IMG/VR virus record: IMGVR_UViG_3300018059_000035
Span: 1-28,702 of that record
DNA length: 28,702 bases
Strand: one strand, 5' to 3'
From: a virus
Shown: in pieces, positions 1 through 28,702 of the stretch
Numbering within the stretch: position 1 is the stretch's first letter
How the letters are laid out: each line of letters starts with the position of its first letter
Made by a program: the position numbers and the translations under genes
The notes under the pieces: model-generated
Seen by the model: the letters and a program-made list of their open reading frames with translations, nothing else
Told to the model about the DNA's origin: nothing
Database searches by the model: none

Positions 1-1155
1 AAGGTGGTCATCGGTCCCGCGGCCAACGCTTCAGCCACAGCGTTCAGCCTGCGGGTTTACATGGGAGATGGCTTCGCGGAGGTATTCGACAACCTTCTTG
101 TGACACCTTCAACAGACGTGAATTTCGTGGAGACGGCCATCAATGAGGTTTCCACTCTGATTACGGTGGACCAGAATGGCTCTTCCTCGGTCATCCCCGA
201 GGCTGGTACGACAACCCTTACGGGTGGAGACGATGGAGTTGCCTCGGTGACGGATGCCGACTATATCGGCACGACCACTTCCTTGGGGAAAACCGGACTC
301 CAGATTTTCGCCAACGCGGAGGATTTCGACCTGAACTTGCTGGCCGTGCCGGGAGTTTCCTCGGCAGCAGTCATCAACGAGATGCTGCTGCTCTGTTCGA
401 CACGCGGTGACTGCATGTCCATCGTGGACCCGCCGCTCGGGCTCTCGACGCAGCAGGTCGTGGACTGGCACAACGGCGCTGGCGCCTACTCGGATCATCA
501 GGCTTTCAATACGTTCTATGGCGCTCTGTATTGGCCATGGCTCCAGATTTACGACGCCACGAACAAAATGAAGGTTTGGGTTCCGCCTTCGGGTCTTGTC
601 GGTGGAGTGTATGCGTTCACGGACTACAACACCTTCACGTGGATCGCACCTGCCGGTCTCAATCGTGGTCACTTGCTCCAGCCGTTGAAAATCGAGCACA
701 ACCCGGATCTTGGAGAGCGGGATTACCTCTACGGCAATCAGAACGCGGTCAACCCGATTGTGAATTTCCGCAAGGACGGAATCACGGTCTTCGGTCAGCG
801 TTCGCTTCAGAGAAAGCCAAGCGCTCTTGACCGGGTGAATGTCGTGCGTCTTGTGCTTTATCTGCGGAAGGCTATTGCCACAGCGGTCAAGTACCTTGTG
901 TTCGAGCCGAACGATCCGATTACGTGGGCGGCTTTCGTGAATCTCGTGGAACCTTACATGGAGATGGTCAAGCAGAATCGGGGCGTATACGACTACAAGG
1001 TCATCTGCGACAAGGATACGAACCCGCCTGATGCCATTGACAGGAACGAAATGCACGGGGTCGTGGCGATGAAACCGGTGAAGGCCGCTGAATTCCTCGA
1101 AGTGAAATTCGTGCTCACGGCCACGGGCGCCCGGTTTGAGGATCTCGTTTTTTGA
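1..1155 (+). CDS. Contractile tail sheath protein, C-terminal part (5' end outside the window)
   Basis: The reading frame is already open at base 1, so the true start lies upstream and only about 384 residues are visible. The C-terminal two thirds look like a phage tail sheath: a conserved segment giving the order and disposition of bound DNA-independent structural repeats, with GLNRG, then NPIVNFRKDGITVFGQRSL, and a final helical segment containing LVFEPNDPITWAAF, followed by a domain ending in KFVLTATGARFEDLVF. Sheath subunits polymerise around the tube and contract to drive it through the host envelope. The gene stops with TTTTGA and is followed by a homing endonuclease instead of the tube gene, which lies 6.7 kb further on. 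The family call is by motif recognition; the N-terminal part cannot be judged. Confidence 0.88.
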   Translation, partial: KVVIGPAANASATAFSLRVYMGDGFAEVFDNLLVTPSTDVNFVETAINEVSTLITVDQNGSSSVIPEAGTTTLTGGDDGVASVTDADYIGTTTSLGKTGLQIFANAEDFDLNLLAVPGVSSAAVINEMLLLCSTRGDCMSIVDPPLGLSTQQVVDWHNGAGAYSDHQAFNTFYGALYWPWLQIYDATNKMKVWVPPSGLVGGVYAFTDYNTFTWIAPAGLNRGHLLQPLKIEHNPDLGERDYLYGNQNAVNPIVNFRKDGITVFGQRSLQRKPSALDRVNVVRLVLYLRKAIATAVKYLVFEPNDPITWAAFVNLVEPYMEMVKQNRGVYDYKVICDKDTNPPDAIDRNEMHGVVAMKPVKAAEFLEVKFVLTATGARFEDLVF

Positions 1156-8445: not shown

Positions 8446-8512
8446 CGTTTTCTCCTTCACTGCTGACCCCATGAAAAAAAGGCGAAAGCGGAGAGAAGAG
8501 AAGGAGAGAGCG

Positions 8513-9304
8513 ATGACCACGAATCTCAAGCCCGTACCACCGGTTGTTGAAATCCAGCCTCGTACGGCAGGCAGCGTTGAATTGCCCTCGCGAGGGAAGT
8601 TTTATGGCGCGGCCTGCCCCGATGGAATTGTCGAGATGTTCCCCATGACCGGACGTGAGGAAGCGCTCGTGTCCGGTATGGGGGCTTCGAACATCACGAC
8701 GATTTTTGACACGCTCCTTAAGCGCTGCATGAAAACTGGTCCACCGGTAGAGGAGCTTCTAACGAGTGACCGTTTCTACTTGCTTTTCGTGTTGCGTTCC
8801 AACAGCTATGGAGAGGATTACACGTTCACGACTAAGTGTCCGTCATGCAGCGCCCGAGTAAACCATACTTCTAAGGTCCCTTCTGATTTCAAGATTCTGT
8901 GGGCCAAGGACGAGTGGGCGGAGCCGTTTTCTGTTACGCTGCCTCGTTCACAAGCTACAGTGCAATTCCGTCTTCTGCGTGGCAAGGATGAAGCGGAGAT
9001 TCTTCAGTACGCCAGACGGGAAGAGGCGAAAGCCCGGCTTGAAGATCCTAGCTTCATTTATCGTCTCGCTAAGGCGCTCGTCACGATCAACGGGAAGACA
9101 CCTGAAATCCAGACAGCAATGACTTTCATTGAGAATCTGATCGGCGAGGATTGCTCGGCGCTGAAGAACGCCATCGACGATGTGACGCCGGGCGCGGTCA
9201 CCGGAGTGGACATCACTTGTACGAACGGGCGATGTGGAGATTTCTTTCGGGTGGATCTGCCTTTCACTGGCGATTTTTTTCGTACTCAACGACGTGGAGC
9301 GTGA
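8513..9304 (+). CDS. Baseplate hub assembly / tail chaperone protein (T4 gp26/gp51-like)
   Basis: The 263-residue product starts at ATG 8513, preceded by AAGGAG; an in-frame ATG at 8471 lacks such a site and would add a 14-residue basic tail. Features of the T4 gp26-like family are ELPSRGKFY (23-31), MTGREEALVSG (45-55) and LLTSDRFYLLFVLRSNSYGE (82-101). A zinc ribbon is likely from C109, C112, C236 and C241. The gene lies between tube and tape measure, the usual site of tail assembly chaperones. A run of seven T residues at 9274-9280 could shift ribosomes into the overlapping downstream frame and yield a longer form. Confidence 0.75.
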   Translation: MTTNLKPVPPVVEIQPRTAGSVELPSRGKFYGAACPDGIVEMFPMTGREEALVSGMGASNITTIFDTLLKRCMKTGPPVEELLTSDRFYLLFVLRSNSYGEDYTFTTKCPSCSARVNHTSKVPSDFKILWAKDEWAEPFSVTLPRSQATVQFRLLRGKDEAEILQYARREEAKARLEDPSFIYRLAKALVTINGKTPEIQTAMTFIENLIGEDCSALKNAIDDVTPGAVTGVDITCTNGRCGDFFRVDLPFTGDFFRTQRRGA

Positions 9305-13160: not shown

Positions 13161-14380
13161 CGCTTTCTCCATCTGACTACGCTCCGAACCCACACGTCGC
13201 CTTTTCGTGGTTGACCATCGCAGGTACGCCGGTTACGACTACGGAGGGGGGGCGTCCACGGCATCTCGAAGCTTTCAAATGCTCGTTCAAGGTCGAGGAG
13301 ATCGGGAATTTTCACTTTACACTGTTCGACCCTGAGTACGATTTTGTCGAAGGGCTTATCACGAAATCCAAGGGGAAGTGTACCTTCAAGTTCGGATATA
13401 CGACCGGGCGGCAATCCAAGGAGTACACGGGCTACATTCTGGAGTACGTTCCACAATTCCTGATTGATGGAATTCGTATCCACATGAAGGGTCTTCTGCT
13501 CGGCATGGACATGCACAAGAAAATAAAGACCCGCCCGTGGACCGGCAAGAAAATTCACGAGATCGTTAAGGAGATTGCCGCGGACGCTGGTTTCAAAGAC
13601 GATGTGGAGGACTGCGAACCTGTCGAGTACCGCGAGGACCTTGATGAATCTGATTTGCAGCAGAAGAATTTTCCGCAGCACCAGACCGACCTCGGGTTTA
13701 TTCTGAACAAGCTTCAGAAGCAGGCGTGCCGACAAAAGGACAAGGCGAGTGGCTACGTGCTTTATTTCGACTATGAAACCAAGCCGCCAACGCTGCACTT
13801 TCATCCACCGCGAATGGAAGAGAAGCCTGTAAAGACTTTCATCTGGCGTGAGCGTCAGACGGAGGTCATTGCTTTCACGCCGCGGTATGCTGGCAATCTC
13901 CTGTCAGTTTTGCTTTGGGGTTCCTCGCAGACTCCCACACTGGACCTGACTGACACGGGGCAAAGTGCCAACCTCAAGAGCCACGACAAGGGAACTGGTA
14001 AGGGTTCGCATACGGACCCTGCTGCACCACGTATCGAGCAACCAGCCTCGGACACCGAGTTTCAAGAATCCGGTCGGATTTTTAAGGTGGAGCCGGATAA
14101 ATTCTTTGGTGAGCGTGAGTCGAAATTCTGGTGGTACAGGTACGCTTGGTTCGCGGCCATGACGGCGACTTTGACCGTTGTCGGAGATCCAAACTTGAAA
14201 CCGTTCAAGAAATATGAGGTGCGCGTACAGAAAAAAGATGGCGGGTTACATTGGACATCGGGGCTCTATATGTGCATGGGCATCAAACATGAAATCACAG
14301 AAGGACGTTACGAAACGACGATGGAGTTGTGGCGGACCGGTGCCAAGGGTGGAGAGACCGCTTCGGGGACACTCACATGA
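13157..14380 (+). CDS. Baseplate hub protein (gp27/gpD-like)
   Basis: The 407-residue product resembles the P2 gpD/T4 gp27/VgrG N-terminal hub fold. It has strand-rich barrels with FKVEEIGNFHFTLFDPEYDF and YTGYILEYVPQFLIDGI, a helical linker with TGKKIHEIVKEIAADAGF, a loop with QHQTDLGFILNKLQKQA, and a second barrel. Trimers form the ring that joins the tube to the spike. The next gene encodes an OB-fold spike, the usual partner. Its ATG overlaps the preceding stop. The last 80 residues (YEVRVQKKDGGLHWTSGLY to MELWRTG) match the final barrel of the family. Confidence 0.85.
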   Translation: MTLSPSDYAPNPHVAFSWLTIAGTPVTTTEGGRPRHLEAFKCSFKVEEIGNFHFTLFDPEYDFVEGLITKSKGKCTFKFGYTTGRQSKEYTGYILEYVPQFLIDGIRIHMKGLLLGMDMHKKIKTRPWTGKKIHEIVKEIAADAGFKDDVEDCEPVEYREDLDESDLQQKNFPQHQTDLGFILNKLQKQACRQKDKASGYVLYFDYETKPPTLHFHPPRMEEKPVKTFIWRERQTEVIAFTPRYAGNLLSVLLWGSSQTPTLDLTDTGQSANLKSHDKGTGKGSHTDPAAPRIEQPASDTEFQESGRIFKVEPDKFFGERESKFWWYRYAWFAAMTATLTVVGDPNLKPFKKYEVRVQKKDGGLHWTSGLYMCMGIKHEITEGRYETTMELWRTGAKGGETASGTLT

Positions 14381-15474
14381 TGGCTGAAACGCCTTATACG
14401 CTCGGGCCGAACGTCCCCAAGGACGAGCTTTCGTCTCGTCGTCTAGATGGCCCGTGGCCCGGTCTTGTGGAGTATGTAGCCGATCCGCTTCAGCAGGGGA
14501 GGGTCAAGGTCAGAATCTACCAGCTTCATGGCCCACAGGGGCGTGATCCAAAAACGAAAATCGCCACTGAGGATTTGCCGTGGGCTATGCCGTGTCTCCC
14601 GTACGCAGGTGGGAATGACTACGGTTCTTTTATGATCCCGCCCGTTGGCTCGACGGTGTGGGTGATGTTCGTGTCCGGCAACCCGGAATTTCCAATCTAC
14701 CTTGGGGGCTTCTACGCGATCAACCAGAAGGCGCAGGAGTATCTTCGAACGATGGGTTTCCCGAAGCACGAAATTTCCATGGCGGGCAGCGGGGATGTCT
14801 GGACTGGTCCAAAGGGGCCGGAGATGCCTCTGGAGGCGCTTCAGATGCTTCATGCCACTCCTGACGTGGCGGTCGTGGCCAAGTCCGTCAAGGGGGCGGC
14901 GCTGGTGTTCGACGACAAGGACGAGCGGGAGAGCACTACCCTTGTCGATAGGGCCGGTCAGGGGCTCTTCATGGAGGCTGAGGTCCAGAAGGGGCCTAAC
15001 CTCGGGAACGCGGCTCAGAGGGGCCTTAGCGCTCTCGCCAAGGGGGATTCAGCGGCTTCTGTCGGGGAGACTGTGGGAAACGAGGTCCGGGTCTTCCTCG
15101 TGGACGCCGGGGGTCAGGCGGTCCTCCTGCACTCTCACATAGGATCTGAGCGCATCAAGCTCATATCGCGTCCCGTGGGGGACGAAACGAACTATGCCGG
15201 GCACAAGGGAGAAATTTCGGTGGAACTGGACGCGGGCTCGCGGCGGGTCGTCTTTGCCTCCTCCTCTGGCGGGGACGCGGGGATGAAGGTCATTTTCGAT
15301 GCGGCCTCGGGGTTCATTGAGATTGCAGGTCCGGTTGTGGCCCGGCTCAATGTCGGTGTGCTGGAGATCCTTGGGCGCACGACGATGAAGGGAGACTTGC
15401 TCGTCGAGGGGGATCTGCTTGTTGAAGGAGACTCGTTAATCTGTGGAGAAAAGATCGGAGGGGAGGCAGCATGA
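14377..15474 (+). CDS. Baseplate spike protein with OB-fold (gp5/gpV-like), no lysozyme domain
   Basis: The 365-residue product starts at ATGATG overlapping the hub stop (either ATG is possible). Residues 28-113 are an OB-fold gp5-type domain: GPWPGLVEYVADPLQQGRVK, ending VWVMFVSGNPEFPIYLGGFY. The central part has less clear structure. The C-terminus is a Gly/Val-rich beta-prism segment with GDLLVEGDLLVEGDSLICGE. It would sit on the hub and puncture the outer membrane. Unlike T4 gp5 it has no lysozyme insertion; peptidoglycan cutting may instead reside in the tape measure M15 domain. Confidence is high. Confidence 0.85.
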   Translation: MMAETPYTLGPNVPKDELSSRRLDGPWPGLVEYVADPLQQGRVKVRIYQLHGPQGRDPKTKIATEDLPWAMPCLPYAGGNDYGSFMIPPVGSTVWVMFVSGNPEFPIYLGGFYAINQKAQEYLRTMGFPKHEISMAGSGDVWTGPKGPEMPLEALQMLHATPDVAVVAKSVKGAALVFDDKDERESTTLVDRAGQGLFMEAEVQKGPNLGNAAQRGLSALAKGDSAASVGETVGNEVRVFLVDAGGQAVLLHSHIGSERIKLISRPVGDETNYAGHKGEISVELDAGSRRVVFASSSGGDAGMKVIFDAASGFIEIAGPVVARLNVGVLEILGRTTMKGDLLVEGDLLVEGDSLICGEKIGGEAA

Positions 15475-15875
15475 AGTTTGAGCCTATCGTAGCCGCGAAT
15501 TTCGACTTCGATATCGGTCTGCCTTATTTTCATCTGGTGGTCAAACGGCTGTGTTGGCCGCTTCTCGTGGAAGGCGGCACAACCTTTCCGCACAAGGAGC
15601 GTTGTCTTCGTGTGGAAATCGTTCTCTGTGAGGATATTCCGTACAACGACTGGTTCGAAAAAATGTTGACGGAGACGTTCACTGGAGTGTTGACCTGTAT
15701 GGATCGAAAAGGGGCGGAAAAACTGATTGTAACCTTCCACAACATGAAGCTCGTCGAGCGTGGTTTTGATCTGGATTACACCAACTTGGGGCCGCTCAGG
15801 GCGAGGCTGGTTTTTCGCTACGACCATATCGAGGAAAAGCTGTTACCACCAACCGAGGTCATCACAACAATCTGA
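15471..15875 (+). CDS. Hypothetical baseplate-associated protein
   Basis: The 134-residue product is strand-rich (FHLVVKRLCWPLLVEGG, ERCLRVEIVLCED, AEKLIVTFHNMKL, ARLVFRYDHIEE). It overlaps the spike stop by ATGA and the next gene by TGATG. Composition and size recall small tube-fold or initiator-type proteins of the baseplate, but no motif proves it. Being coupled on both sides in the hub/spike string suggests a baseplate role. Confidence 0.55.
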   Translation: MKFEPIVAANFDFDIGLPYFHLVVKRLCWPLLVEGGTTFPHKERCLRVEIVLCEDIPYNDWFEKMLTETFTGVLTCMDRKGAEKLIVTFHNMKLVERGFDLDYTNLGPLRARLVFRYDHIEEKLLPPTEVITTI

Positions 15876-18199
15876 TGTCCATTCAATCCGAGATAGACCG
15901 CAATCTGACCGAACGTGGCCGGTTTTTGCATTCGTTCGTAATTTCCGGTGAATCGGGAGACGCGAATGTTCCTAAAGACGTGCATGTACGTTTCTACGGT
16001 TGTACGATTGGGTCACTCAATTTGAACGGAAACAACAACGTTTTTCTTGAAGGAGGAGTATGCGCAGCGATTGTGGCAAAAAGTTCGTCTCTGATGTCGC
16101 GTGGAACTGGATTTACGGGGGAAGCCTCTCTTGACGAACAATCGAAAGCCGATCTTTTCGGTGGCTCCATCACCGCCCCGTGGAGATTCAAAGCCCGGTC
16201 ATTTTTCCGTGGAGACAATCTCACGTTTTCTGGCGGTGATATCGCGCTCGATTTCCAAGCAGGCTCGCAAGGGCGTGTCACGCGCTCCACGTTTTCAGGG
16301 CACGGAACCGCGGCTGTAAAAGCCGCTGCCGGGTCCTATGCCTTACTTTCGAATTGTGCGTCGGTCAAGGGTACGCGGGCGTTGTGGGCGACTGATCGTG
16401 GAGTCATTCAAGCCATTGAGTGTGCGCTTGTCGAGGGAACGGGGCTTTACGCGTTACAGGTCGAGGACTACGGGCGTATCGAGGCGTTGAACTGCGCGCT
16501 CGTCAAAGGAGCCGTCAACGCTGGATACGGCGATACCTATGGGTTCCTGAGCCTGCAAAAATGCACGACGATTCTTGGGGCTGGAAATTCAGCCATCTTT
16601 CTCGATAACCATGCCGGGGCGGAGATACGGTTCTTCGATACGTGCGAAGGTCAGGGGGATTCGGCGATACGTACAACGAATCTGAATTCGGTTTTCGTGC
16701 TCGGAGGGGCGTTACTCCGGTCGGGAGCCAAGGACGGTCTGGAGCTAAAAGGAGGCTCAACCGGGCAGATTGTCAGCGTTGTGCTGGTCAAAGGTGCTGG
16801 ACGGCATGGGGTGCATCTCGAAAGCAACTCTGAATTGTATGTCAACGACGTGGTAAACATCGAAGGTGCCCAAGAGGGATTTTTCGCGGCCGATGGGTCG
16901 TTGCTCAACATGCATGACGTGGCTGTGGTAAAGGGGCTTGGAAGTCATGGTGGAACGATCAGCGGCGCGTCAAAGGCGGCACTCTTTGTCGATACGATCA
17001 TCGGGGAAGCTGGCCACGGGTTGAATCTTTCGGGAAAATCGCGTGTCGTGTTGAAAGGTCCTTCGCTCGTCAAAGGTAATTCAGGTCACGGCGTTAGCCT
17101 TGGCGCTGAATGCGAGATTGTCGTGTCACAAGCTGAATCGGTGTCCGGGGAAGCAGGCGACGGGATCAACGCTGGTGCTTCCTGCAAGGTCATCACGAAC
17201 AAGAGTACTGTTGTCGGAAAGGCAGGAAATGGCATTACAGCGGGGGCCGGAACGACGGTTCATGCCACATCCTGCGCCAGCATTCTTGGACAGGCTGGCC
17301 ATGGGATAGACGCCACGGATTCTCTCGTGCGTTTGCGGAAAGTGGCGTCTATTTCAGGACTGGCCGGGCACGGGATCAAGCTAGTCAACCCGGATTTTGA
17401 AATGGTTCTGTGTCCGGACGTTTCTGGCATCGAAGATGGGATCAACGCAGTTGGGCGAGGTGCGGGTTCTGACAGCCTGAAAGTCGAACGGTGTGTCGTG
17501 GTAGGGACCAGTACAGGGCTCAACGTGACGAAAGTGAAGGTTAGTAGTTACGGGTCTAAGTACACCGGTTCTACGTCTTTGCTGGCTGTACAAGCTCATG
17601 TCATCGTTTCGGAAGATGTTTTCGATGGTGATGCGACGATCTTGCAGACTGTGTACGAGGAGCGAAACTCCAAAATTGACGGAGACTTGACGTACGATGA
17701 CGCGTCTGTTTTTACTGTCAAGGGCGAGGTTACTGGAGATGTGGTTTTCAACAATACTGGAATTCTTTCGGTAAAGGGAATTACCAAGGATCTGACCGCT
17801 ACAGATTCCGCGTTGTTGTTGCTTAAATCAGCGGCACAGGCGGTAGAGTTAACGGATGCTGTGGCGCTTTTAGTCAAGACAACGGCGCAGGGAATAGACG
17901 TGACGGATGCAGTGGCTTTTCTCATCAAGGCTACCGCGTCGGGGATGTCACTTTCCAACGCGGCGGCAATCCTCGTCAAGGCTACCGCGTCGGGGATGTC
18001 ACTTTCCAACGCGGCGGCAATCCTAGCTAAATCAGGGGCTGGAATAATCTCTGGAAGCGGTTCTGTTGTTTCTGCTTTGGGGGGCACTCCCCAAATCGGA
18101 GTGGATTTCGTTGACCTTGAATCGGATCTCATCAAAATTCAGGACAAGACCGGTGCTTCGATGACCTTCGCTGGTTCGAGCATCACTACAAACGAGTAA
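15875..18199 (+). CDS. Right-handed beta-helix protein with tandem C-terminal repeats
   Basis: The 774-residue product is dominated by short strand-turn units. The middle third has a period of about 24 residues with recurring AGHGI/GHGV motifs (GEAGHGLNL, GNSGHGVSL, GQAGHGIDA, GLAGHGIKL). This strongly suggests a parallel beta-helix such as a tail spike or needle-like appendage that binds or cuts surface polysaccharide. Residues about 647-720 hold a 17-residue tandem repeat, partly identical in DNA. No catalytic carboxylate cluster could be identified by eye. Genes before and after are baseplate parts, so it is probably virion-bound. Whether it binds receptors or builds the baseplate tip is open. 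Confidence 0.7.
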   Translation: MSIQSEIDRNLTERGRFLHSFVISGESGDANVPKDVHVRFYGCTIGSLNLNGNNNVFLEGGVCAAIVAKSSSLMSRGTGFTGEASLDEQSKADLFGGSITAPWRFKARSFFRGDNLTFSGGDIALDFQAGSQGRVTRSTFSGHGTAAVKAAAGSYALLSNCASVKGTRALWATDRGVIQAIECALVEGTGLYALQVEDYGRIEALNCALVKGAVNAGYGDTYGFLSLQKCTTILGAGNSAIFLDNHAGAEIRFFDTCEGQGDSAIRTTNLNSVFVLGGALLRSGAKDGLELKGGSTGQIVSVVLVKGAGRHGVHLESNSELYVNDVVNIEGAQEGFFAADGSLLNMHDVAVVKGLGSHGGTISGASKAALFVDTIIGEAGHGLNLSGKSRVVLKGPSLVKGNSGHGVSLGAECEIVVSQAESVSGEAGDGINAGASCKVITNKSTVVGKAGNGITAGAGTTVHATSCASILGQAGHGIDATDSLVRLRKVASISGLAGHGIKLVNPDFEMVLCPDVSGIEDGINAVGRGAGSDSLKVERCVVVGTSTGLNVTKVKVSSYGSKYTGSTSLLAVQAHVIVSEDVFDGDATILQTVYEERNSKIDGDLTYDDASVFTVKGEVTGDVVFNNTGILSVKGITKDLTATDSALLLLKSAAQAVELTDAVALLVKTTAQGIDVTDAVAFLIKATASGMSLSNAAAILVKATASGMSLSNAAAILAKSGAGIISGSGSVVSALGGTPQIGVDFVDLESDLIKIQDKTGASMTFAGSSITTNE
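17813..18034 (+). repeat. 51-bp tandem repeats (17-residue units) in the beta-helix gene
   Basis: Four 17-residue units, at 17813, 17864, 17915 and 17966, plus a partial fifth follow the pattern A-x-L-x-K-x-x-A-x-G-x-x-x-x-x-A-x. Units 3 and 4 share 49 identical bases (17925-17973 and 17976-18024), so that duplication is recent. One unit may equal one solenoid coil. Confidence 0.9.
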
Positions 18200-18617: not shown

Positions 18618-20252
18618 GTGGTGGCGTCGTTCGATCTGTCTGAAGCCTCAGCCAATGTCATCGGGACAGGGGCGAAAGTACCGTTTGCCTTTGGTATAGG
18701 AAAAAGCGTTCGCTCGGTCACGACAGCGAATGGGCTAGACAAAATTCTAGATTCCATTAAAACGATTCTTCAGACCCGCCCCGGTGAGCGTTTCATGGTG
18801 CCTGATTTTGGGTGTTTGACCGGGGATACTCCAATTCCGCTTTTGGACGGCACGGTAGTTCTTATGCGGGATCTTGTAGGCCGAGAGGTATGGGTCTATG
18901 GGAATGATGGGAATTATGTAGTTCCTGTGAAGACCGATGGCGCGGTGTCTAGGGGGTTCAAGCAGGTCGTACGAGTTCTTCTGGACGATGGGGCTGAACA
19001 ACTATGCACTCCAGATCACCTGTTTCTTTTGCGGGACGGAACGTATCGAAGAGCGGATGCTTTGTCTTCTGGCGATTCGCTCATGCCTCTTTATCGCCAG
19101 ATCAACCGACGAGGATATGAGGAGACTTATATACCGTGTATTGAAAAATGGGTTCCTACTCATCGTCTGTTGATTCCCAAAGTTATGAAGGGAAAAGTTG
19201 TTCATCACGCTGATTTTAATAAGCGTAACAACGCGCCAGAAAATCTTGTGGTTATTGGGAAGATTAAACATTTCGAACTGCATTCGGTACACGCACGAGA
19301 AACGGGTATTCTCCACGCGCTGTGGTCCAGTCGTGAGGGACGAGAACGCATGTTAAACGTGGTTCGCAGAACCATTCAGCGGCATAATACACGCTACAAA
19401 GAAGACTGTGCCTATCGAGAGGATATTAGGGTGAAGCGTGCCATCAAGCTTCGTGCTTTTCACGCGAGGCGCCGTTTGGAAAATACTGCTGCGCGGGTAG
19501 AGAAGGAGCGGTGGAAGGAGCAGGTTCGACAGGAGAAATTGAAAAGGGCACATCTTATTCGTTCTGAAAATGCCCGTCAGTTCGGTGTTCCTCGTTTGAT
19601 CGCGTGGAGTCGTAGTGAGGCGGGGCGGACAAATGCCAGACAGCTTGGAAAAAACAAACTTAAGTCCGTAACTCGTCAGGGTATATTGGAGTTTGCGACT
19701 CCGCTGACCTTTGACGGAAACCGTGCTGAATTAGTCACTTATGTCTGCCAACATTTTCAGCTTTCGCGTGCGGCTTTGAAGCGTCGTGTGGCTCTTTCAG
19801 AATTAGCCCCGCAGGTTGCGAAGGGAAACAAGTGGCACAACCATAAAGTCGTGTCTGTGGAACCATTGGCGCTAGAGTTGGAGGTTTTCGATCTCGTCAA
19901 TACACGTACACAGAATTTCGCTGTAGGAGCAGGTGTTTTTGTTCATAATAGTCGGCTGTACGATCTCGTGTTCGAGCCGAACGATAATATCACAACCGCT
20001 CTTCTCAATTTCTACACTGTCGAGGCGCTCAAGAAATGGGAAAAGCGGGTACGTATTACGCGTGTGACCTTTCAGATGAACGAGAATGATCCACACTACG
20101 TTGGAATCTCCATTGAATTCTACGTCCTTCAGACGCACCAGAAAGGCTCTTACGTATTTCCGTTCGTAAGGCAACCTGCGCCGATGACGGAACTGGCAAC
20201 GGGCTCTGAGTCAAGACGTATTTTCACACAGGGGCAGGTGTTGCCGCTATGA
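18618..20252 (+). CDS. gp25-like baseplate wedge protein interrupted by an intein
   Basis: The 544-residue precursor is a GTG-started gp25/gpW-type wedge protein of about 165 residues split by a 379-residue intein. The N-extein (1-65) ends GERFMVPDFG and the C-extein (445-544) begins SRLYDLVFEPND. Joined, they give the conserved GERxxxPxFGxxLxxLxFEP signature of this family. The insertion point is thus at the most conserved stretch, typical for inteins. The wedge protein is a core part of the baseplate and also resembles the lysozyme-like protein of type VI secretion. The first nucleophile is C66 and the +1 residue is S445. Splicing appears possible because end motifs are intact. Confidence 0.92.
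   Translation: MVASFDLSEASANVIGTGAKVPFAFGIGKSVRSVTTANGLDKILDSIKTILQTRPGERFMVPDFGCLTGDTPIPLLDGTVVLMRDLVGREVWVYGNDGNYVVPVKTDGAVSRGFKQVVRVLLDDGAEQLCTPDHLFLLRDGTYRRADALSSGDSLMPLYRQINRRGYEETYIPCIEKWVPTHRLLIPKVMKGKVVHHADFNKRNNAPENLVVIGKIKHFELHSVHARETGILHALWSSREGRERMLNVVRRTIQRHNTRYKEDCAYREDIRVKRAIKLRAFHARRRLENTAARVEKERWKEQVRQEKLKRAHLIRSENARQFGVPRLIAWSRSEAGRTNARQLGKNKLKSVTRQGILEFATPLTFDGNRAELVTYVCQHFQLSRAALKRRVALSELAPQVAKGNKWHNHKVVSVEPLALELEVFDLVNTRTQNFAVGAGVFVHNSRLYDLVFEPNDNITTALLNFYTVEALKKWEKRVRITRVTFQMNENDPHYVGISIEFYVLQTHQKGSYVFPFVRQPAPMTELATGSESRRIFTQGQVLPL
18813..19949 (+). mobile_element. Intein with HNH homing endonuclease domain
   Basis: Positions are in precursor residues. Block A is CLTGDTPIPLLDGTVV from C66. 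Block B contains TPDH (TxxH type) in LCTPDHLFLLRDG. The HNH endonuclease core lies at about 183-220: VVHHADFNKRNNAPENLVVI with H197 and N209, then KHFELH. A basic helical region (about 230-400) probably binds DNA. Block F is VSVEPLALELEVFDL and block G is GAGVFVHN, ending with the H443-N444 pair needed for C-terminal cleavage, followed by Ser +1. All splicing residues are present, so the element appears active in splicing. Endonuclease activity is likely but unproven. Confidence 0.92.
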
Positions 20253-20617
20253 GTATTTTTCGCCTGTTCACGCGCGGGAAAAAAAGTCCGCTCATTGCGA
20301 AGAAGGAAATTCCCGTGGGGGTGACCGACAATCCGCTTGATCCTCGGTTGGGGCATGGACCGGACACGGGACCTCGTTCGCAAAACGAAGTGTACCTTGT
20401 GCTGTCCAAGGAAGAGCGTATGAAACCCTTTATGCGTCCCTATCGCGACACGTATGTCCACGTCAAATGCGGGATGCGCACGAAAATGGGAGTCGCACTT
20501 TCAGAGACGTACGCAAGGGACCCGAAATTCTACGGCTCCACGTATTGTTTTGAATGTCAAATGCATCTTCCGGTTTCTGAGTTCAACTGGCTGGACGGTG
20601 CGCAGGTAGGTAGCTAA
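20249..20617 (+). CDS. Small zinc-finger-like phage protein
   Basis: The 122-residue product overlaps the wedge gene by ATGA. Its C-terminal half has a probable zinc site (H71, C74, C100, C103) in the recognisable stretch YVHVKCGMRTKMGVALSETY, ARDPKFYGSTYCFECQMHLP, VSEFNWLDG. This motif recurs in small phage proteins of unknown role. The N-terminal 45 residues are basic and Pro-rich. It is coded between two wedge genes; an assembly factor or minor structural part is plausible. Confidence 0.6.
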   Translation: MSIFRLFTRGKKSPLIAKKEIPVGVTDNPLDPRLGHGPDTGPRSQNEVYLVLSKEERMKPFMRPYRDTYVHVKCGMRTKMGVALSETYARDPKFYGSTYCFECQMHLPVSEFNWLDGAQVGS

Positions 20618-20618
20618 A

Positions 20619-22499
20619 ATGACCGACGCTCCGATTGCCCGTGTCCAATATACGAATGCGGATTTTCGCACTCTGCGGCAGGAGCTACTCGCTCGCATCC
20701 CGTTTTTGACTTCGGGTAAATGGTCGGATCTCAACGAGTCCGATATCGGCATCGCTATCGTGGAGCTTCTTATTGGAATGCAGGATCAGAACCTCTTCTA
20801 CCTCGATAAGAAATTTCTTGAATCACAGCTTCCCACGGCGCGTCAAAGAGTCAACGTCAAGAATCTCCTGAAGCTGATCGCCTACGACGTGCCGGGGTAT
20901 GTCTCGGCCAGCGGGCAGGTGACGATCTCGGTGGCCCCGAGCGCTACTCCGCCCGCCTATGGGACGGTCAATGGACACGCCAATTCGATCCTGATTCCGT
21001 TGGCAACCGAGCTTTCGGGGCGGAGCGAGGTGGCCGACGCGGTTTCTTTCTATACCATCGAAGACCGCTACCTGACACAGCCACAGGCCGGGGCTTCAGG
21101 AGCGGTCACGGTAGGAGTCATTCAGGGACAGCGGTTGACTTCTCCTGAAACGTTTCAGGGGGATGGAACGGCTAATCAGCGCTATGTCCTGCGCGTGCAG
21201 AATGTGGCCCGTGATCTCTTGACGGTTAAGATCGGCTCGACCGAAAATTCGGCAATCCCGTGGGTACGGGTGACGACATTCTTGACTTCGAAGGCCAACG
21301 ATCAGATTTTTGAAGCAGTGGAGGACGAAAAGGGGAACGTCTACATTCAATTCGGGGATGGGAAATTCGGTAAGGTTCCTCCGCTCGGGCAGAATATCTA
21401 CGTTTATGCCGTCATCACGTTGGGTACGACAGGCAACCTTGCCGCTGGCACGGTGACGCAGGTAACCTCTTCAGTGCTCGACACGAATGGTAGTCCGGTG
21501 TCGTTGACCGCTTCGAATGTGCAGGCGATGACGGGAGGAGCCGATCCTGAGACAATTGAGATCGCGAAGCGTAACGGTCCGGCACAGTTGTCGGCGCTTT
21601 TCAGGGCGATGTCGAAGAGAGATTACATTGCGCTGGCACAATTGATTCAGGGCGTTGACAAGGCGAATGCGTGGGGAGAGCAGGAAGAGCTTCACCCAAA
21701 TATTAAGCTCTTTAACCGGGTCATGGTGACCTTTCTCGCGCTTGACTCGAATGGAAATCTTATCGACCCACTGTCTCCTGAATATGCCGTGATTCGTTCG
21801 CAGGTGTCTACTCTTCTGGAGGAGCGTAAACCGGTTACAACTCGTGTCGTGTTTGAGCAGCCACAGTGGGTGGACTTGATCGTTTCCACGCAGGTGGCTG
21901 TGGACAGGACGCTCTACGACGAAAATATCATCGCGTCAGAGGCCAAACTGGCTGTACAGGATTATTTCTCGTACGTCAACGTAACCTTTGGACAGGACGC
22001 ACGGCAGTCTCTTGTCTCCAAGCTGCTTCTCACTGTGCCGGGGGTTTCATGGGCAACGGTACAGCTTGCTCAACGGAAGGGCTCGACAGAAACAGCGCCA
22101 TCCTACGGGGACATTCCGGTGTCTCGGTGGGAGCTTATTCGTATCAACGACTTTGATCAGCAGGGAAATCCGGTACTCGGAACGGATGCTTCCGGCAAGG
22201 TTATCGAGCATGTCAGGATCTTCACGACCACGCAGGTGGATGCACCGACTCCGGATTTCCAGACAGACGAATCGTTGAGCGGTGTGTTCCCGTCAGGGGC
22301 GAAACCGTTCATTGAAACGCCGTTCGGCGTCATCAACGATGTGAACATGTCGTTCGTCAACCCGACGAATCTGGCTGGCAGAACTGTCATGGTCTACGTT
22401 GATGGTTTTTGGGATTCTGGCGCTGTGGTTTCAGGCGCAGGAATTACGACCAGTACGTCGCCGCATTCAAGCATCAAAGTCGTGAGTTGGGGAGGGTAG
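20619..22499 (+). CDS. Baseplate wedge protein (gp6/gpJ-like)
   Basis: The 626-residue product has the baseplate_J pattern. The N-terminal helical part has FRTLRQELLARIPFLTSGKW and IAIVELLIGMQDQNLFYLDK. The centre has PETIEIAKRNGPAQLSALFRAMSKRDYIAL split over 539-330-type motif positions in the middle third. The C-terminal part has KPVTTRVVFEQPQWVDLIVS and a typical VQDYFSYVNVTFGQDARQ stretch. Such proteins form the iris-like ring of the wedge with gp7 and gp53. It follows the gp25-like gene and precedes fibre genes, the standard order. The C-terminal 150 residues look like an added domain. Confidence 0.85.
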   Translation: MTDAPIARVQYTNADFRTLRQELLARIPFLTSGKWSDLNESDIGIAIVELLIGMQDQNLFYLDKKFLESQLPTARQRVNVKNLLKLIAYDVPGYVSASGQVTISVAPSATPPAYGTVNGHANSILIPLATELSGRSEVADAVSFYTIEDRYLTQPQAGASGAVTVGVIQGQRLTSPETFQGDGTANQRYVLRVQNVARDLLTVKIGSTENSAIPWVRVTTFLTSKANDQIFEAVEDEKGNVYIQFGDGKFGKVPPLGQNIYVYAVITLGTTGNLAAGTVTQVTSSVLDTNGSPVSLTASNVQAMTGGADPETIEIAKRNGPAQLSALFRAMSKRDYIALAQLIQGVDKANAWGEQEELHPNIKLFNRVMVTFLALDSNGNLIDPLSPEYAVIRSQVSTLLEERKPVTTRVVFEQPQWVDLIVSTQVAVDRTLYDENIIASEAKLAVQDYFSYVNVTFGQDARQSLVSKLLLTVPGVSWATVQLAQRKGSTETAPSYGDIPVSRWELIRINDFDQQGNPVLGTDASGKVIEHVRIFTTTQVDAPTPDFQTDESLSGVFPSGAKPFIETPFGVINDVNMSFVNPTNLAGRTVMVYVDGFWDSGAVVSGAGITTSTSPHSSIKVVSWGG

Positions 22500-22500
22500 G

Positions 22501-24978
22501 GTGTTCAAGAAATTCTTGACTGCACTGCTTTTCGTTTCTGGTATCGCTGCCGCGCAAGAAAAATTCAGTCTGTTCAATCGGGCGTCTCCCACTCCCGGAG
22601 GTACGACGGGCTGTATTGTCTATGCTTCGACGACCACTTCGTTGGGGTGCATCGCACTCGGGATTACGGGGTATGTGTTGACGGCAGGGTCAGCAGGACC
22701 CCATTATGCTCCGCCAACAACGGGGGTCGTTCCAACAGGTACTGGATTTCGCTATGTTGCGAGTGGTGTGGAGGCTGACACAGGCAAGCTCGTTGACACT
22801 TCTGATGTGAATAATAGTCAGATCACGTACGCGAAAATTCAGGACATGGGTGCCTCTTCGCGGCTTCTCGGGCGATCAACAACCGGAGCCGGGGTCATCG
22901 AAGAGCTTGCTGTCAGCACGGGGCTCACACTTGCTGGTGGTGCTTTAACCGTGACATCCCCCATCCTGACGACTCTTGGTGGCACCGGGACAATTACGAA
23001 CATGACGGCGGGGGGCATCGTGTTTCCGGGTGTGGGTGGTCCGTACACTCAGGATGCGACTAACCTTTTCTGGAATGACGCGGATAATCGTTTCGGAATA
23101 GGAACAGCTACACCGGCAGGTCTGCTCTCTGTCAATCTCGCGTCTGCCTCCGGGAACGTGAGCACATGGGACAGTACCTACGCGATCTTTGGTGCCGCAG
23201 GTTCGGCGCAGGGTAAGGCTGTCGGGATTGGGTACGACAGCGTTAGCGATTTCGGGGAGATCCGATCAATTCACCCCGGTACATCATGGAAGAACCTCGC
23301 TATCAGGGGAAGAAACCTCCTTTTTTACTATCAGGACGGCGCAGGCATCACTCAAGAGGGGATGCGGCTGGTTGAGACTACAGGCCGTCTTGGTATCGGG
23401 ACAGCGGCGCCCACCTCACGTGCGACGGTCTCCGATAATACAGTGGCGCTTCCGGCACCTCCGACAGGAACTGTAATTCATGTTGGTGGAGCGAACGACA
23501 CGTTAGCCCGTTTTGTTTTAGATTCCTTCGGCAACGCACAACCGAACATCACCTTGCGGCGGGCACAGGGTACGGCTGCTCTGCCTACTGCTGTTGTATC
23601 TAATGATATTCTTGCTGACTACGCGGCTCGGGGTCGTGGCACGACGGTCTATTCTACTGGCGCGGCTGCTTTGATAAGGATGAGTGCTGCGCAAAATTGG
23701 ACCGATACGGCTCAGGGTTCTTATTTGACGTTTTTTACGAGTCCGAATGGGACGAACACACTTACTGAGATTGTGCGTATCGACAGTACCGGACTTGTTG
23801 GGGTTGGTACGACGGCACCCACGTCGCGGTTGACAGCTTCGGATAACGCGGCAACGCTTCCGGCGCCTACTGCTGGTACTGTTTTCCATGCCGCGGCGGC
23901 GGATACCATTAACAGCCGATTTACAATTGATGCCTTCGGTGCTGGCGTGCCTCTCTTCACCGCTCGTGCTGCTCTCGGTACGGGGGCGTCTCCAACTGCC
24001 CTCGCTCTCGATGGCGGGATGGGCGGGTTTGACTGGCAGGGACGCGGCACAACGGTCTACTCTAGCACGGCGCGGGCTTTCATCCGGGCCGCTGCGGCTG
24101 AGGCGTGGACGGACAGCGCGCACGGTACGTATCTGCGGTTCGCCACGACGCCAGTTGGCTCAACAACAGTCACTGAACAGATGAGGCTCGACGCCGCTGG
24201 TCGTGTTGGGATCGGTGTCACGGTGCCCGTTTTCAATCTCGACCTTAAGTACCCTGTTGGAGCAACGGATGTTTTCGGCTGGCAGTATGGGGCTGATGCC
24301 GCTTCCCGTAATTGGGGGTTGCGTCCGGATATAATTGAGTATGGTGATTTTGTCATCCAGACGAGTGCCGCGAAAACATCTGGTCAGCTTAATATTAATC
24401 GCTGGCGAATCGGTCCTACAGGTCTCATTACCCATAGTCTTGCTGGACTCTCTGGTACTAGTGGTACATTATTAACGACTCCCGGCACTCTTTTTACGCA
24501 GACGGCAAATGCCGTTACGACAGCGAACAACCTCACGACGCTCTTCGGAACCGGGGTCGGGACTCTCACGCTCGCGACCAATACGCTCGCCATTGGGCGT
24601 ACCATCGAGATTGAGATGGGCGGGTTTATTTCGGCAGCGGACGGCGGGGCCGGGACAAAGACTCTCACTCTTAGTCTTGGCGGTGTTACCATCGCCACTG
24701 CGACGAGCGGAGCGACGTTCACGACCGTCGTGAACAACGCATGGCGAGCGAAGGCGTCCATCACCTGCCGCACGACGGGGGCGGGCGGGACCTGCATTGG
24801 CGGGGCGTCGTGGGAGACGCAGATCGCCACTGCCAACCCGAACGGGGTATTCGCCGTGGCGACAGCGACGGCGGCGTGCAACACAACGGGAACGCTGGTA
24901 ATAGACCTGAAGCTCAATAATGGGAACGCTACCGGGACCTCCACGACCACCTATGCCAGCGTGAAGATCCTGAATTAA
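22501..24978 (+). CDS. Tail fibre protein with N-terminal signal-peptide-like segment
   Basis: The 825-residue product starts at GTG 22501, preceded by GGAGGG. Residues 1-19 (MFKKFLTALLFVSGIAAAQ) look like a Sec signal peptide cut after AAA or AQ, unusual for a virion fibre. The body has repeated GIGT-x-P modules typical of phage fibres (FGIGTATP, LGIGTAAP, VGVGTTAP, VGIGVTVP) and a 136-residue tandem duplication at 295-430 and 431-566. The end (about 660-825) is strand-rich, probably a receptor-binding jelly-roll tip (TLTLATNTLAIGRTIEIEMG). Because the usual baseplate attachment motif is not visible, function is inferred. Neighbours are wedge and gpI-type genes. Confidence 0.75.
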   Translation: MFKKFLTALLFVSGIAAAQEKFSLFNRASPTPGGTTGCIVYASTTTSLGCIALGITGYVLTAGSAGPHYAPPTTGVVPTGTGFRYVASGVEADTGKLVDTSDVNNSQITYAKIQDMGASSRLLGRSTTGAGVIEELAVSTGLTLAGGALTVTSPILTTLGGTGTITNMTAGGIVFPGVGGPYTQDATNLFWNDADNRFGIGTATPAGLLSVNLASASGNVSTWDSTYAIFGAAGSAQGKAVGIGYDSVSDFGEIRSIHPGTSWKNLAIRGRNLLFYYQDGAGITQEGMRLVETTGRLGIGTAAPTSRATVSDNTVALPAPPTGTVIHVGGANDTLARFVLDSFGNAQPNITLRRAQGTAALPTAVVSNDILADYAARGRGTTVYSTGAAALIRMSAAQNWTDTAQGSYLTFFTSPNGTNTLTEIVRIDSTGLVGVGTTAPTSRLTASDNAATLPAPTAGTVFHAAAADTINSRFTIDAFGAGVPLFTARAALGTGASPTALALDGGMGGFDWQGRGTTVYSSTARAFIRAAAAEAWTDSAHGTYLRFATTPVGSTTVTEQMRLDAAGRVGIGVTVPVFNLDLKYPVGATDVFGWQYGADAASRNWGLRPDIIEYGDFVIQTSAAKTSGQLNINRWRIGPTGLITHSLAGLSGTSGTLLTTPGTLFTQTANAVTTANNLTTLFGTGVGTLTLATNTLAIGRTIEIEMGGFISAADGGAGTKTLTLSLGGVTIATATSGATFTTVVNNAWRAKASITCRTTGAGGTCIGGASWETQIATANPNGVFAVATATAACNTTGTLVIDLKLNNGNATGTSTTTYASVKILN
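23383..24198 (+). repeat. 136-residue tandem duplication in the tail fibre gene
   Basis: Two 408-base units, 23383-23790 and 23791-24198, align without gaps. Shared protein landmarks include APTSR, SDN, LPAP, GTV-x-H, RF-x-x-D-x-FG, RGRGTTVYS-type text and WTD-x-A-x-G-x-YL. DNA has diverged, so the duplication is old. A third start (GRVGIG) follows at 24199 without the rest. Confidence 0.85.
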
Positions 24979-24979
24979 T

Positions 24980-25081
24980 ATGCCCGGTTTCACCGAGACT
25001 CGGCGTTTCGTTCTATCGGCTGAGTGTGGAAACAATTCGATGATGTACGCCATCGTGGAAGTGAGGGGGGGTGGTAGCTAA
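24980..25081 (+). CDS. Possible 33-residue small protein
   Basis: ATG 24980 follows the fibre stop by one base (TAATATG), and the frame runs to TAA at 25079-25081, overlapping the GTG start of the next gene. The product begins MPGFTETRRFVLSAECGN and ends VEVRGGGS. No strong Shine-Dalgarno is seen, but coupling to the fibre stop could replace it. It would fill the gap between two genes. Function is unknown and it may be non-coding. Confidence 0.4.
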   Translation: MPGFTETRRFVLSAECGNNSMMYAIVEVRGGGS

Positions 25082-27989
25082 AGTGGCAACAAAGACTACG
25101 GCTCCGGTCGTTGACCGTCTGACACTCAGCGATCACACGTCGCAGGTAATGGGATTTCTCGACGATGAGAATTCCGGTGCTATAGTCTATGTGTATCTGA
25201 ACACAAAAAGGGTCGCGACTGTTTTCACAATTCTTGACTCGAACGGTAGGAAGAGGTGGCGCGCGGAGACTTCGGATTTCGCGTTTGGTGGCGGAGTCCA
25301 GCACGTCAAATCCGGGGATCATTTTTATTTTCAGGCCAAAGCAGTCGGGAAGGATAAATCCGATCCGACGAAAATCTACACGGTTCTTGGCATCGACCAG
25401 CCGGATACTCCTTACACTCAGGCGGATCTCTCACAGCCACTGGGAAACATTTACGAAAGTGAACGTTACCTTGTCGGGGATGTTCCGTTGTTCAATGGTA
25501 CGGACCTCTTCATGTCTGATATCTCGAATAACGTGGAGGAAGGAGTCACGGTATCGGTTTACGTGAACGGTACGTTTCTTGGCATCACACAGTCGGATCG
25601 GACCGGGCACTGGACATTCGATACGCTCAGCGTTCCGGATTCACCGCTTCTTCCTTTGACGAAGAATGACCGGGTAACGGCACGAGCTATTCGGTACGCT
25701 GTCAATCCGGCGGACGGCTTGAAAACTGAAGTGCTTGTGCCTTCCGCCGAATCACAGCCTGCCATCGTGCTCGGGAACTTCTATACACAGCGCCTGTTCG
25801 ATTTTCTTCCGGCGCAGATGCAGACGGATGACAAGATTTCTGGCGACCTTCAAGTATTCACGAAAATACTTGGGATGACGATGGATGAAGTGAAGTCGTT
25901 CATCGACCAGTTCACCGACATTTTTGACATCGACCGGTGCGACACTAAGTATTTCGATGCGCTGGCCTATTTGCTTGGCTACCCCCTCAACAAACAGGAC
26001 TCGTTTGAGTCTCAGAGGTTTCAACTCAAGAATGCCGTTGAGTTGTGGAAGCGCAAGGGCACCTTCGAAGTCTTTCGAATTCTTTTCTACCTCCTTGATT
26101 TCGACATCACGATCACTGAGCTTTGGACAGAGGACTACGCGCTTTTCTTCCCGACGATCATGGCGTCAAACCGCGTGGATTATCTCTACTATGACGACCA
26201 GAATAACCCGCTGCCGCCACCTGACACGGCTCCCGAGCTTCTCGAAAATGGCGGCACATGGTATAAGTCTCCTTATTTCGGAATTCATATCGACCCGCTC
26301 GTGCAGTACACTCCAACACCGGGGTATCCCTATAAGACTGATCCTGTGGCCTGTCCGATGGAATCGAACACGTTTGCGATTGCCTTTTCGCCGGAGGACC
26401 TTAAATATCTGCTCGAACGGGTTGATTATTTTCGCCCTGCGCATACGGTGCTTGACTACATCGCTTTCATGTTTCCGATTTTCGAGTGCGGTCCGATTCC
26501 GGACGACCCGATGGAATTGGACGTGGACTGGTATCCGCAGGACCCCGGTTGGTACGCGCCGTACTGTCTGCCTGATGATCCGATTTACTACCGTGACGGT
26601 CACCACTCCACGCGGCCAGACGGGAAGGGTACGCTCGACCTCGGCGTGATGAGGGATTTGACAGGACTTCATCCCTCCACCGATCCGACTATCAACATGA
26701 AAAGGCTGCCGGAACGTGGTTATTGTCATCCGGGAGAAATTCTGGAATTCGCGTCGGAGAGCGACACCGAGGAACCATATTATTTCACTATGCTCAGAAA
26801 TGGTTTTGGAATGTCTATCGCCGATCTCGCGCCTGACATGAATGATTGGCCTTCTCGTGATCCCTACGACCCGCCACTTCGTGACGGGAAATACCGGTAC
26901 GCCTCTCGGTTGCTTGTCTACCACAGCCATTTGGAAATGCTTCACAATTTCTTTCCTAGTACTCAATACGGAGTTTCTCCAAGAAGTTCTCTGGTTCAAT
27001 CCAGTGAGGACGGGTATCTTTACGGCGTGACATCAGCAGGAGGTTTGCTTGGTTACGGCATGGTTTTCAAATTCGATTTAGATGGTAATTTGCTAGACAC
27101 TTACAACTTCGGTACGTATGAAGCGAGAGACGTACAGTGTGGATTAACGGAAGCACCGGAACCGGGGATTGATCCACTCAGGCTTTACGGCGCTTCGGGG
27201 GTAGGTGGTTCCGCCGATGCAGGGTGTGTATTCAAAATAAATCGCACTCCTATGGCTCTGACTGTTCTTCATTCATTTCAGTTAGGTAATGAAGGCTACC
27301 TTCCGTCTTCATCACTTGTGTACGCCGTTGACGGATATCTTTATGGTGTCTGTGCGGGTGGTGGTCCGTCTGGACAGGGTACTGTTTTCAGAATTCTTGG
27401 GGATGGCACTGACTTTAGCGTTGTTCACGCGTTTGGTGCAGACGGAGTGAATTCTTCACGTTCGTTGATGCAGGCTTCGAACGGACATTTTTATGGAACT
27501 GATGCAGTCGGTAATGTCTTCAAGATGGATGGGACAACGTTTGCTATAACAGTGCTTGCAACAGGGCTTGATACACCCTATGGAACACTCGTGGAGTACA
27601 GTGGGTTTCTTTACGGTGTGACTAGTGCTGGTGGGACTAACGGCAGGGGATTGTTCTACAAGGTGGAGCTTGCGACTGGAGCCTATACTGCTGTTTCATC
27701 ATTTCCGGTATCTCCCGGTCCTACTCAAACATTCGCGTTTCTTGCGCTTGCTAGTGCTGGTTTATTTTATGGTGTCAGCACTCAGGGTGGTAGCGGCAAT
27801 GATGGGGTAGTGTTTTCTGTAAACACGGCGGGTACGATAACCACACTGGAATCGTTTATGCGCAACATTACTGGCTTTAGTTCGAAAGCGGGATTACTCA
27901 AAGCGACCAATGGTAGTTTCTACGGAGTGACTCCAGTGGCTACTCTTATCGGTGGAAGTTATGGAACACTTTTCAGGTTCCTGTACTAA
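25071..27989 (+). CDS. gpI-like tail protein fused to a seven-repeat GloVer-type propeller
   Basis: The 972-residue product starts at GTG 25071 (GTG 25083 is possible). Residues 1-95 and about 140-225 look like Ig-like beta domains (VYVNGTFLGITQSDRTGHWT). Residues about 235-355 match P2 gpI-type tail proteins: FYTQRLFDFLPAQMQTDDK, DALAYLLGYPLNKQDSFESQ, VELWKRKGTFEVFRILFYLL. A Tyr/Asp-rich linker follows (400-630). From about 639 to the end, seven tandem units carry LYG or FYG then GG and VF-K, the pattern of GloVer-type (TIGR03803-like) bacterial repeats, predicting a closed propeller. The propeller DNA is more A/T-rich than the gpI part. The fusion would put a receptor-binding or cell-surface domain on a baseplate protein. 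Confidence 0.85.
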   Translation: MVAKVATKTTAPVVDRLTLSDHTSQVMGFLDDENSGAIVYVYLNTKRVATVFTILDSNGRKRWRAETSDFAFGGGVQHVKSGDHFYFQAKAVGKDKSDPTKIYTVLGIDQPDTPYTQADLSQPLGNIYESERYLVGDVPLFNGTDLFMSDISNNVEEGVTVSVYVNGTFLGITQSDRTGHWTFDTLSVPDSPLLPLTKNDRVTARAIRYAVNPADGLKTEVLVPSAESQPAIVLGNFYTQRLFDFLPAQMQTDDKISGDLQVFTKILGMTMDEVKSFIDQFTDIFDIDRCDTKYFDALAYLLGYPLNKQDSFESQRFQLKNAVELWKRKGTFEVFRILFYLLDFDITITELWTEDYALFFPTIMASNRVDYLYYDDQNNPLPPPDTAPELLENGGTWYKSPYFGIHIDPLVQYTPTPGYPYKTDPVACPMESNTFAIAFSPEDLKYLLERVDYFRPAHTVLDYIAFMFPIFECGPIPDDPMELDVDWYPQDPGWYAPYCLPDDPIYYRDGHHSTRPDGKGTLDLGVMRDLTGLHPSTDPTINMKRLPERGYCHPGEILEFASESDTEEPYYFTMLRNGFGMSIADLAPDMNDWPSRDPYDPPLRDGKYRYASRLLVYHSHLEMLHNFFPSTQYGVSPRSSLVQSSEDGYLYGVTSAGGLLGYGMVFKFDLDGNLLDTYNFGTYEARDVQCGLTEAPEPGIDPLRLYGASGVGGSADAGCVFKINRTPMALTVLHSFQLGNEGYLPSSSLVYAVDGYLYGVCAGGGPSGQGTVFRILGDGTDFSVVHAFGADGVNSSRSLMQASNGHFYGTDAVGNVFKMDGTTFAITVLATGLDTPYGTLVEYSGFLYGVTSAGGTNGRGLFYKVELATGAYTAVSSFPVSPGPTQTFAFLALASAGLFYGVSTQGGSGNDGVVFSVNTAGTITTLESFMRNITGFSSKAGLLKATNGSFYGVTPVATLIGGSYGTLFRFLY
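26985..27986 (+). repeat. Seven propeller repeats (blades) encoded at the C-terminus
   Basis: Units begin with SSLVQSSEDGYLYG, then RLYGASGVGG, SSLVYAVDGYLYG, SLMQASNGHFYG, GTLVEYSGFLYG, LALASAGLFYG and GLLKATNGSFYG. Average unit length is about 48 residues. Seven units fit a complete seven-bladed propeller that closes near the C-terminal residue (GTLFRFLY). Confidence 0.85.
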
Positions 27990-28002: not shown

Positions 28003-28551
28003 GTGAGAAAAAAGAAGTTGCATCCGGTTATTGAGGAAGTGCTTCGGAAGCACGAGCAGGCAGCGGAACGTTATCTGCGAAAACTCAACGTGATTGAGCG
28101 GGCTCCGTGCGGGATCGGGTTCCTGACTCTCGTAACGGTGGATGAGCACGGAAACGTACGTGACACGGTGTCTGGAGCGAACATCGTCGTGAATCTTGGA
28201 CGGAGTAGCCTTGCACACCTGCTGGCCGGGGATTCTTCGGATAACCACAAGATCGTCGCCATGGTATTTGGTGACGGCTCTACGCCTCCTGCGATCACGG
28301 ACACGGGGCTCAGTGGCAGCACGATCATCCAAAAGGACACTTCCTACGACTTCCCTGATGGAGCCACAGGTCTCAAGGTGCGATTTACAGCCGTTGTCGG
28401 TTCGGCTGAGGGGAACGGCGCGGGATCGCAGATTTACCGCGAGGCGGCGCTCGTGAAGGGAAATGGGGACATCTTCTCGCGAAAGGTCAGCGGGTCTATC
28501 ACGAAGGACAATACGGTGGTCCTAACTGCCCTCTACACTTTTATTTTTTGA
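28003..28551 (+). CDS. Fibre or baseplate-associated virion protein
   Basis: The 182-residue product starts with GTG after AGGGAGAGG. A basic N-terminal helix (MRKKKLHPVIEEVLRKHEQA) is followed by a strand-rich domain with NIVVNLGRSSLAHLLAGDSS, VAMVFGDGSTPPA, and a closing EAALVKGNGDIFSRKVSGSI. This resembles fibre- or collar-associated proteins, where YREAxLxxxxGxxFxR is common. It is the last plus-strand gene and ends TTTTTTGA. A role as connector or accessory of the fibres is inferred from its position and motif. Confidence 0.6.
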   Translation: MRKKKLHPVIEEVLRKHEQAAERYLRKLNVIERAPCGIGFLTLVTVDEHGNVRDTVSGANIVVNLGRSSLAHLLAGDSSDNHKIVAMVFGDGSTPPAITDTGLSGSTIIQKDTSYDFPDGATGLKVRFTAVVGSAEGNGAGSQIYREAALVKGNGDIFSRKVSGSITKDNTVVLTALYTFIF

Positions 28552-28552
28552 G

Positions 28553-28702
28553 TCAGAAGAATCTGGTGCCGTTCAGGTTGAAAATCTCTTGCTTGAGCTT
28601 GGCGATCTCGGCTTCCTTTTTTTCGATCTCTTCGACGTGTTTGCTGGTTTCGTTGTAAATGTGAGCTTCGTGAGCCTCTTTGAGAATCTTGGGGTTGCTG
28701 TC
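28553..28702 (-). CDS. C-terminal 49 residues of a minus-strand gene (cut by the window edge)
   Basis: The reverse strand reads without stops from the window edge to TGA (complement 28553-28555). It encodes DSNPKILKEAHEAHIYNETS, then a charged heptad-like stretch (EEIEKKEAEIAKLKQEIFNL) and a tail ending RFF. This looks like a genuine coiled-coil C-terminus. Its stop is one base from the stop of the fibre gene, so the genes converge with no space for a terminator. The product cannot be identified from this fragment. Confidence 0.65.
   Translation of the reverse strand, partial: DSNPKILKEAHEAHIYNETSKHVEEIEKKEAEIAKLKQEIFNLNGTRFF

Follow-up and report, generated by a model that had tools for sequence, protein, structure and literature searches.

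A predicted seven-bladed GloVer β-propeller at the C-terminus of a gpI-like baseplate protein in a contractile-tail gene cluster

The window analyzed here, i.e., the whole 28,702-base stretch of an IMG/VR virus record, carries a contractile-tail gene cluster (Table 1). Profile searches gave the gene order gp25, J, fibre, gpI, which fits the position of P2 gpI after gp25 (W) and J. The open reading frame (ORF) under study (25071-27989, plus strand) starts with GTG, is intact and encodes a 972-aa protein in which a gpI-like module is fused to GloVer repeats. The 825-aa fibre-like protein has a signal-peptide-like N-terminus (MFKKFLTALLFVSGIAAAQ), which is odd in a virion protein; a fibre-like ORF at L024 634-3009 (minus strand), with repeats of its own, likewise has a signal-peptide-like start. 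A 51-base direct tandem repeat, present in two copies (17909-18010), is located close to the end of a 774-aa ORF (15875-18199). Profiles of defence systems gave no match.

Table 1. Features of the window and of the fusion ORF, with the evidence for each.
Feature	Position in window	Strand	Evidence or remark
Tail sheath	4-1155		
Baseplate hub	8471-9304		
Hub/lysozyme-like	14329-15474		
gp25-like baseplate wedge protein	18618-20252		W-type position before J
Baseplate J-like/wedge gene	20619-22499	+	Baseplate_J (Pfam), phrog_219; 62% identity with sister's
825-aa tail-fibre-like gene	22501-24978	+	phrog_9942 and phrog_18345 (tail fiber); directly upstream of fusion ORF
gpI-like baseplate module, residues 1-616	25071-26918	+	Identity with sister ortholog; Tail_P2_I and TIGR02242 matches
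Tail_P2_I/TIGR02242 core, residues 244-354	25800-26132	+	Profile matches
Fusion junction, residues 615-620 (LVYHSH)	26913-26930	+	Sister ends VITTHV, stop
Seven-bladed GloVer β-propeller (predicted), residues 621-972	26931-27986	+	TIGR03803 score, AlphaFold, VIA-align
GloVer unit 1	26970-27113	+	
GloVer unit 2	27183-27284	+	First half degenerate
GloVer unit 3	27294-27443	+	Top-scoring, 54.4 bits
GloVer unit 4	27444-27551	+	Short, without GG loop
GloVer unit 5	27573-27704	+	
GloVer unit 6	27735-27857	+	
GloVer unit 7	27879-27980	+	
Next gene, phrog_5417	28003-28551	+	66% identity with sister's; conserved

The N-terminal module is matched by the Pfam profile Tail_P2_I (PF09684) with 26 bits at residues 271-354, above the gathering score of 20.6, and by TIGR02242, a phage tail protein domain, with 44.3 bits at residues 244-334, which is under the curated cut-off of 51.85. 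In the full-length model, whose confidence is low in this part, two β-rich stretches, perhaps Ig-like, at residues ca. 12-91 and 147-221 precede the helical Tail_P2_I domain; residues 93-246 and 334-615 mostly have pLDDT values below 50, while most of the propeller lies between 80 and 95. Apart from the window phage and its sister (see below), INPHARED, IMG/VR and GTDB genomes yielded no relative of the gpI module within the reach of our peptide patterns.

GloVer is a common repeat family in Verrucomicrobia, Acidobacteria and others. The whole fusion protein scores 189.6 bits (E-value 4.7e-57) with the GloVer model TIGR03803, well over the cut-off of 44. Seven tandem units were matched between positions 26970 and 27980, and seven were again found with a profile of our own; none of 14 control genomes contained rings of this family. 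A first-pass annotation of the window that had described a gpI-like module joined to seven GloVer repeats, and had proposed the TIGR03803 search as a check, was thus right in both coordinates and counts. The name of the model, “choice-of-anchor”, suggests surface-anchored bacterial proteins. Here, the domain instead lies at the end of a baseplate protein of a phage, which is a matter of context and has no bearing on domain homology.

From an alignment of the isolated propeller domain with eight viral-contig GloVer proteins, AlphaFold predicted a closed seven-bladed ring (pLDDT 78.7, pTM 0.83), as the same annotation had anticipated. VIA-align superimposed this model, over its residues 1-354, on virginiamycin B lyase (2z2n) with a Z score of 31.6 (2.2 Å, 288 residues), and a fold search with the full-length model again returned chiefly propellers. 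Sequence searches retrieved no convincing solved GloVer structure; the designed Pizza propeller was matched at 1.2e-7. The top structural match being an enzyme, the propeller might be a lyase or hydrolase that degrades a host surface polymer in the manner of tail depolymerases, and two genomes of our acidobacterial phylum sample do encode Tail_P2_I proteins that have a Glyco_hydro_42-like segment at the C-terminus (L171 and L172). However, seven-bladed propellers of unrelated function score nearly alike (YncE, Z 31.0; WD40 proteins, ca. 29), so the fold tells nothing about catalysis, and the propeller matched no catalytic family in profile searches. We consider an enzymatic role very unlikely.

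The sole known sister of the window phage is a 141-kb viral contig, IMGVR_UViG_3300032163_000002. Its tail cluster is syntenic with that of the window, with 74% identity for the sheath, 51-68% for the hub and most baseplate genes and 63% for gpI. The sister gpI ortholog is 619 aa long, aligns with residues 5-616 of the fusion protein and ends at the start of the propeller: the sister sequence reads YASRLVITTHV-stop, vs. YASRLLVYHSH in the window, after which the first propeller strand begins. The next gene, separated by 9 bases in the sister and 13 in the window, is common to both phages and has a GAGGTT stretch resembling a ribosome-binding site on its 5′ side in both; the propeller is therefore flanked by syntenic neighbours. 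No GloVer units were found in the sister record, and tblastn found no match to the 825-aa fibre in 139.9 kb of it. Thus, two candidate host-contact elements differ on an otherwise common baseplate.

Another contig, which differs from the window at 6 of 13,635 bases, has the same fusion, and the fusion ORF itself is free of mismatches. Since two contigs agree on the fusion, a chimera of a single assembly is unlikely. All six mismatches fall in window positions 20198-20284 and 28374-28685, four being close to where the gp25-like gene ends. An intein that contains an HNH endonuclease domain splits the gp25-like ORF; since the sister counterpart of this ORF (L030 6358-7983), located at the same place, is of like length and 51% identical, it is apparently intein-bearing too.

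The propeller DNA is A/T-richer than the gpI module, as the first-pass annotation had stated: GC content is 47.6% vs. 51.8%, and GC3 is 0.395 vs. 0.601. Among 266 in-frame segments of equal length taken from other genes, the lowest GC3 is 0.452, so that the propeller lies below them all. Since the sister ortholog stops at the junction and the next gene is common to both phages, we conclude that the whole propeller was gained or lost as a single unit at the natural C-terminus of gpI; together with the GC3 minimum, this makes gain likelier. Loss would mean that the propeller is ancestral to the tail cluster and disappeared from the sister. The gpI module has only two known relatives, and the change therefore cannot be polarised; moreover, the propeller has diverged from all sampled bacterial propellers, which argues against a fresh capture. 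However, the GC3 contrast occurs inside a single ORF, and GloVer had no match in INPHARED phages (two query propellers) or in PHROGs; we regard ancestral presence followed by loss as quite unlikely. The acquisition proposed in the first-pass annotation is, with the propeller-less sister ortholog and the GC3 outlier, well supported.

Low GC3 is no proof of a bacterial source for the captured propeller, since GC3 of the sister's own gpI is 0.355; a low-GC relative phage is equally possible. Among the matches listed, the closest bacterial GloVer propellers come from several phyla and share 30-38% identity with that of the window. A phylogeny was another check proposed in the first-pass annotation; in a tree of sampled propellers, that of the window was placed within the bacterial radiation, but on a long branch and with no well-supported neighbour, its pairing with an Oxalobacteraceae protein being weak (92/83). 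By both identity and tree, no close donor was found among the bacterial propellers listed. The low identity, the long branch and the lack of a well-supported neighbour are consistent with acquisition from a source outside the sample, either long ago or with fast evolution since.

Bacterial GloVer proteins share with the window protein the repeat profile, commonly seven units and the motif LYG-x-T-x-x-GG...G-x-VF. In contrast to it, those found are stand-alone proteins, either secreted-looking or large and surface-type, and none of those sampled has a tail module. The claim of the first-pass annotation that no standard phage tail protein has such an architecture was too strong, since propellers on phage baseplates are already known, and Tail_P2_I proteins with NHL-type propellers turned up in our searches of cyanobacterial genomes. 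In PMC4901313, gp131C of myophage phiKZ is described as a virion protein with a seven-bladed propeller at the baseplate periphery, proposed to be a receptor binder or an enzyme, and gp45 of phi11 as a propeller receptor-binding protein on the baseplate that functions in host recognition. The resemblance of gp131C to the window protein is one of description, the propeller being a C-terminal domain in both; the description of gp131C mentions neither GloVer nor Tail_P2_I (PMC4901313). Unlike the window protein, gp45 is a five-bladed, trimeric receptor-binding protein of a siphophage and is not carried on gpI. Among long Tail_P2_I proteins, three from cyanobacterial genomes (L168, L222 and L227) combine a gpI-like domain with propeller repeats in a single chain, though the repeats are NHL/SBBP instead of GloVer; L222 has the domain order of the window, with gpI first and NHL-type repeats after, whereas L168 and L227 begin with the repeats, followed by gpI.

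P2 gpI is a baseplate protein adjoining the site of fibre attachment, and a domain at its C-terminus may therefore sit at the rim. The best explanation, and in our opinion a probable one, is that in this contractile-tailed phage the lineage gained a GloVer β-propeller at the C-terminus of a gpI-like protein, where it functions as a rim adhesin binding the host before contraction. The adhesin role itself is plausible and the likeliest one for the propeller. The propeller gained by the window lineage would derive from a GloVer gene of a bacterium or of another virus, and the gpI module would anchor it in the baseplate wedge. Several propeller copies would then extend from the rim and attach to a glycan or protein of the host surface ahead of sheath contraction, presumably alongside the 825-aa fibre, likewise absent from the sister.

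That fibre may have been gained as a pair with the propeller, since both are missing in the sister, and the propeller could then be a structural adaptor that docks either the 825-aa fibre or the 1633-aa protein with NHL repeats on the baseplate and makes no host contact itself. In eCIS, some fibres have β-propeller lectins, and in some of these systems Tail_P2_I proteins are likely fibre adaptors (PMC12923769). However, the NHL-repeat protein (1633 and 1641 aa; L039 2614-7515 and L030 12301-17226) is encoded downstream of gpI in both phages and hence does not need the propeller. We judge the adaptor role unlikely. The presence of the NHL-repeat protein also means that the tail region has a second propeller type.

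To our knowledge, no ligand has been identified for any GloVer protein. As an extension of the adhesin reading, the captured propeller might be a host-specificity module, gained by gpI in one step at its natural C-terminus, that attaches to a surface glycan which bacterial GloVer proteins also recognise. This is a tentative idea that we do not expect to hold; if true, the GloVer family at large would consist of lectins that bind glycans or surfaces. The propeller-bearing phage and its propeller-less sister offer a clean way to probe the GloVer binding target, and the pair shows that a baseplate protein can acquire a whole propeller with its neighbours undisturbed. What is new is the occurrence of GloVer repeats in a baseplate protein of a tailed phage, with the junction visible.

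No paper giving the TIGR03803 accession or the model name was found in the literature searched. Foldseek searches against viral models retrieved many phage proteins with propeller folds; the closest viral structure match to the propeller was A0A481Z910 of Pithovirus LCPAC304 (E-value 8.7e-20, TM 0.81, 23% identity), which, unlike the window protein, is a stand-alone 380-aa giant-virus protein and no phage tail protein. Tail_P2_I was found in none of ten GloVer-bearing viral records, among which fragmentary ones could mask a case. In a search of IMG/VR with two DNA patterns, the window phage was the only tail-fused GloVer case; apart from one giant repeat protein, the other matches were GloVer ORFs that stand alone and mostly look as if they carry a signal peptide. 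In IMGVR_UViG_3300034198_015644, a 106-kb record classed as viral, L185 and L213 are very long ORFs that have 25 and 6 GloVer-like units, respectively.
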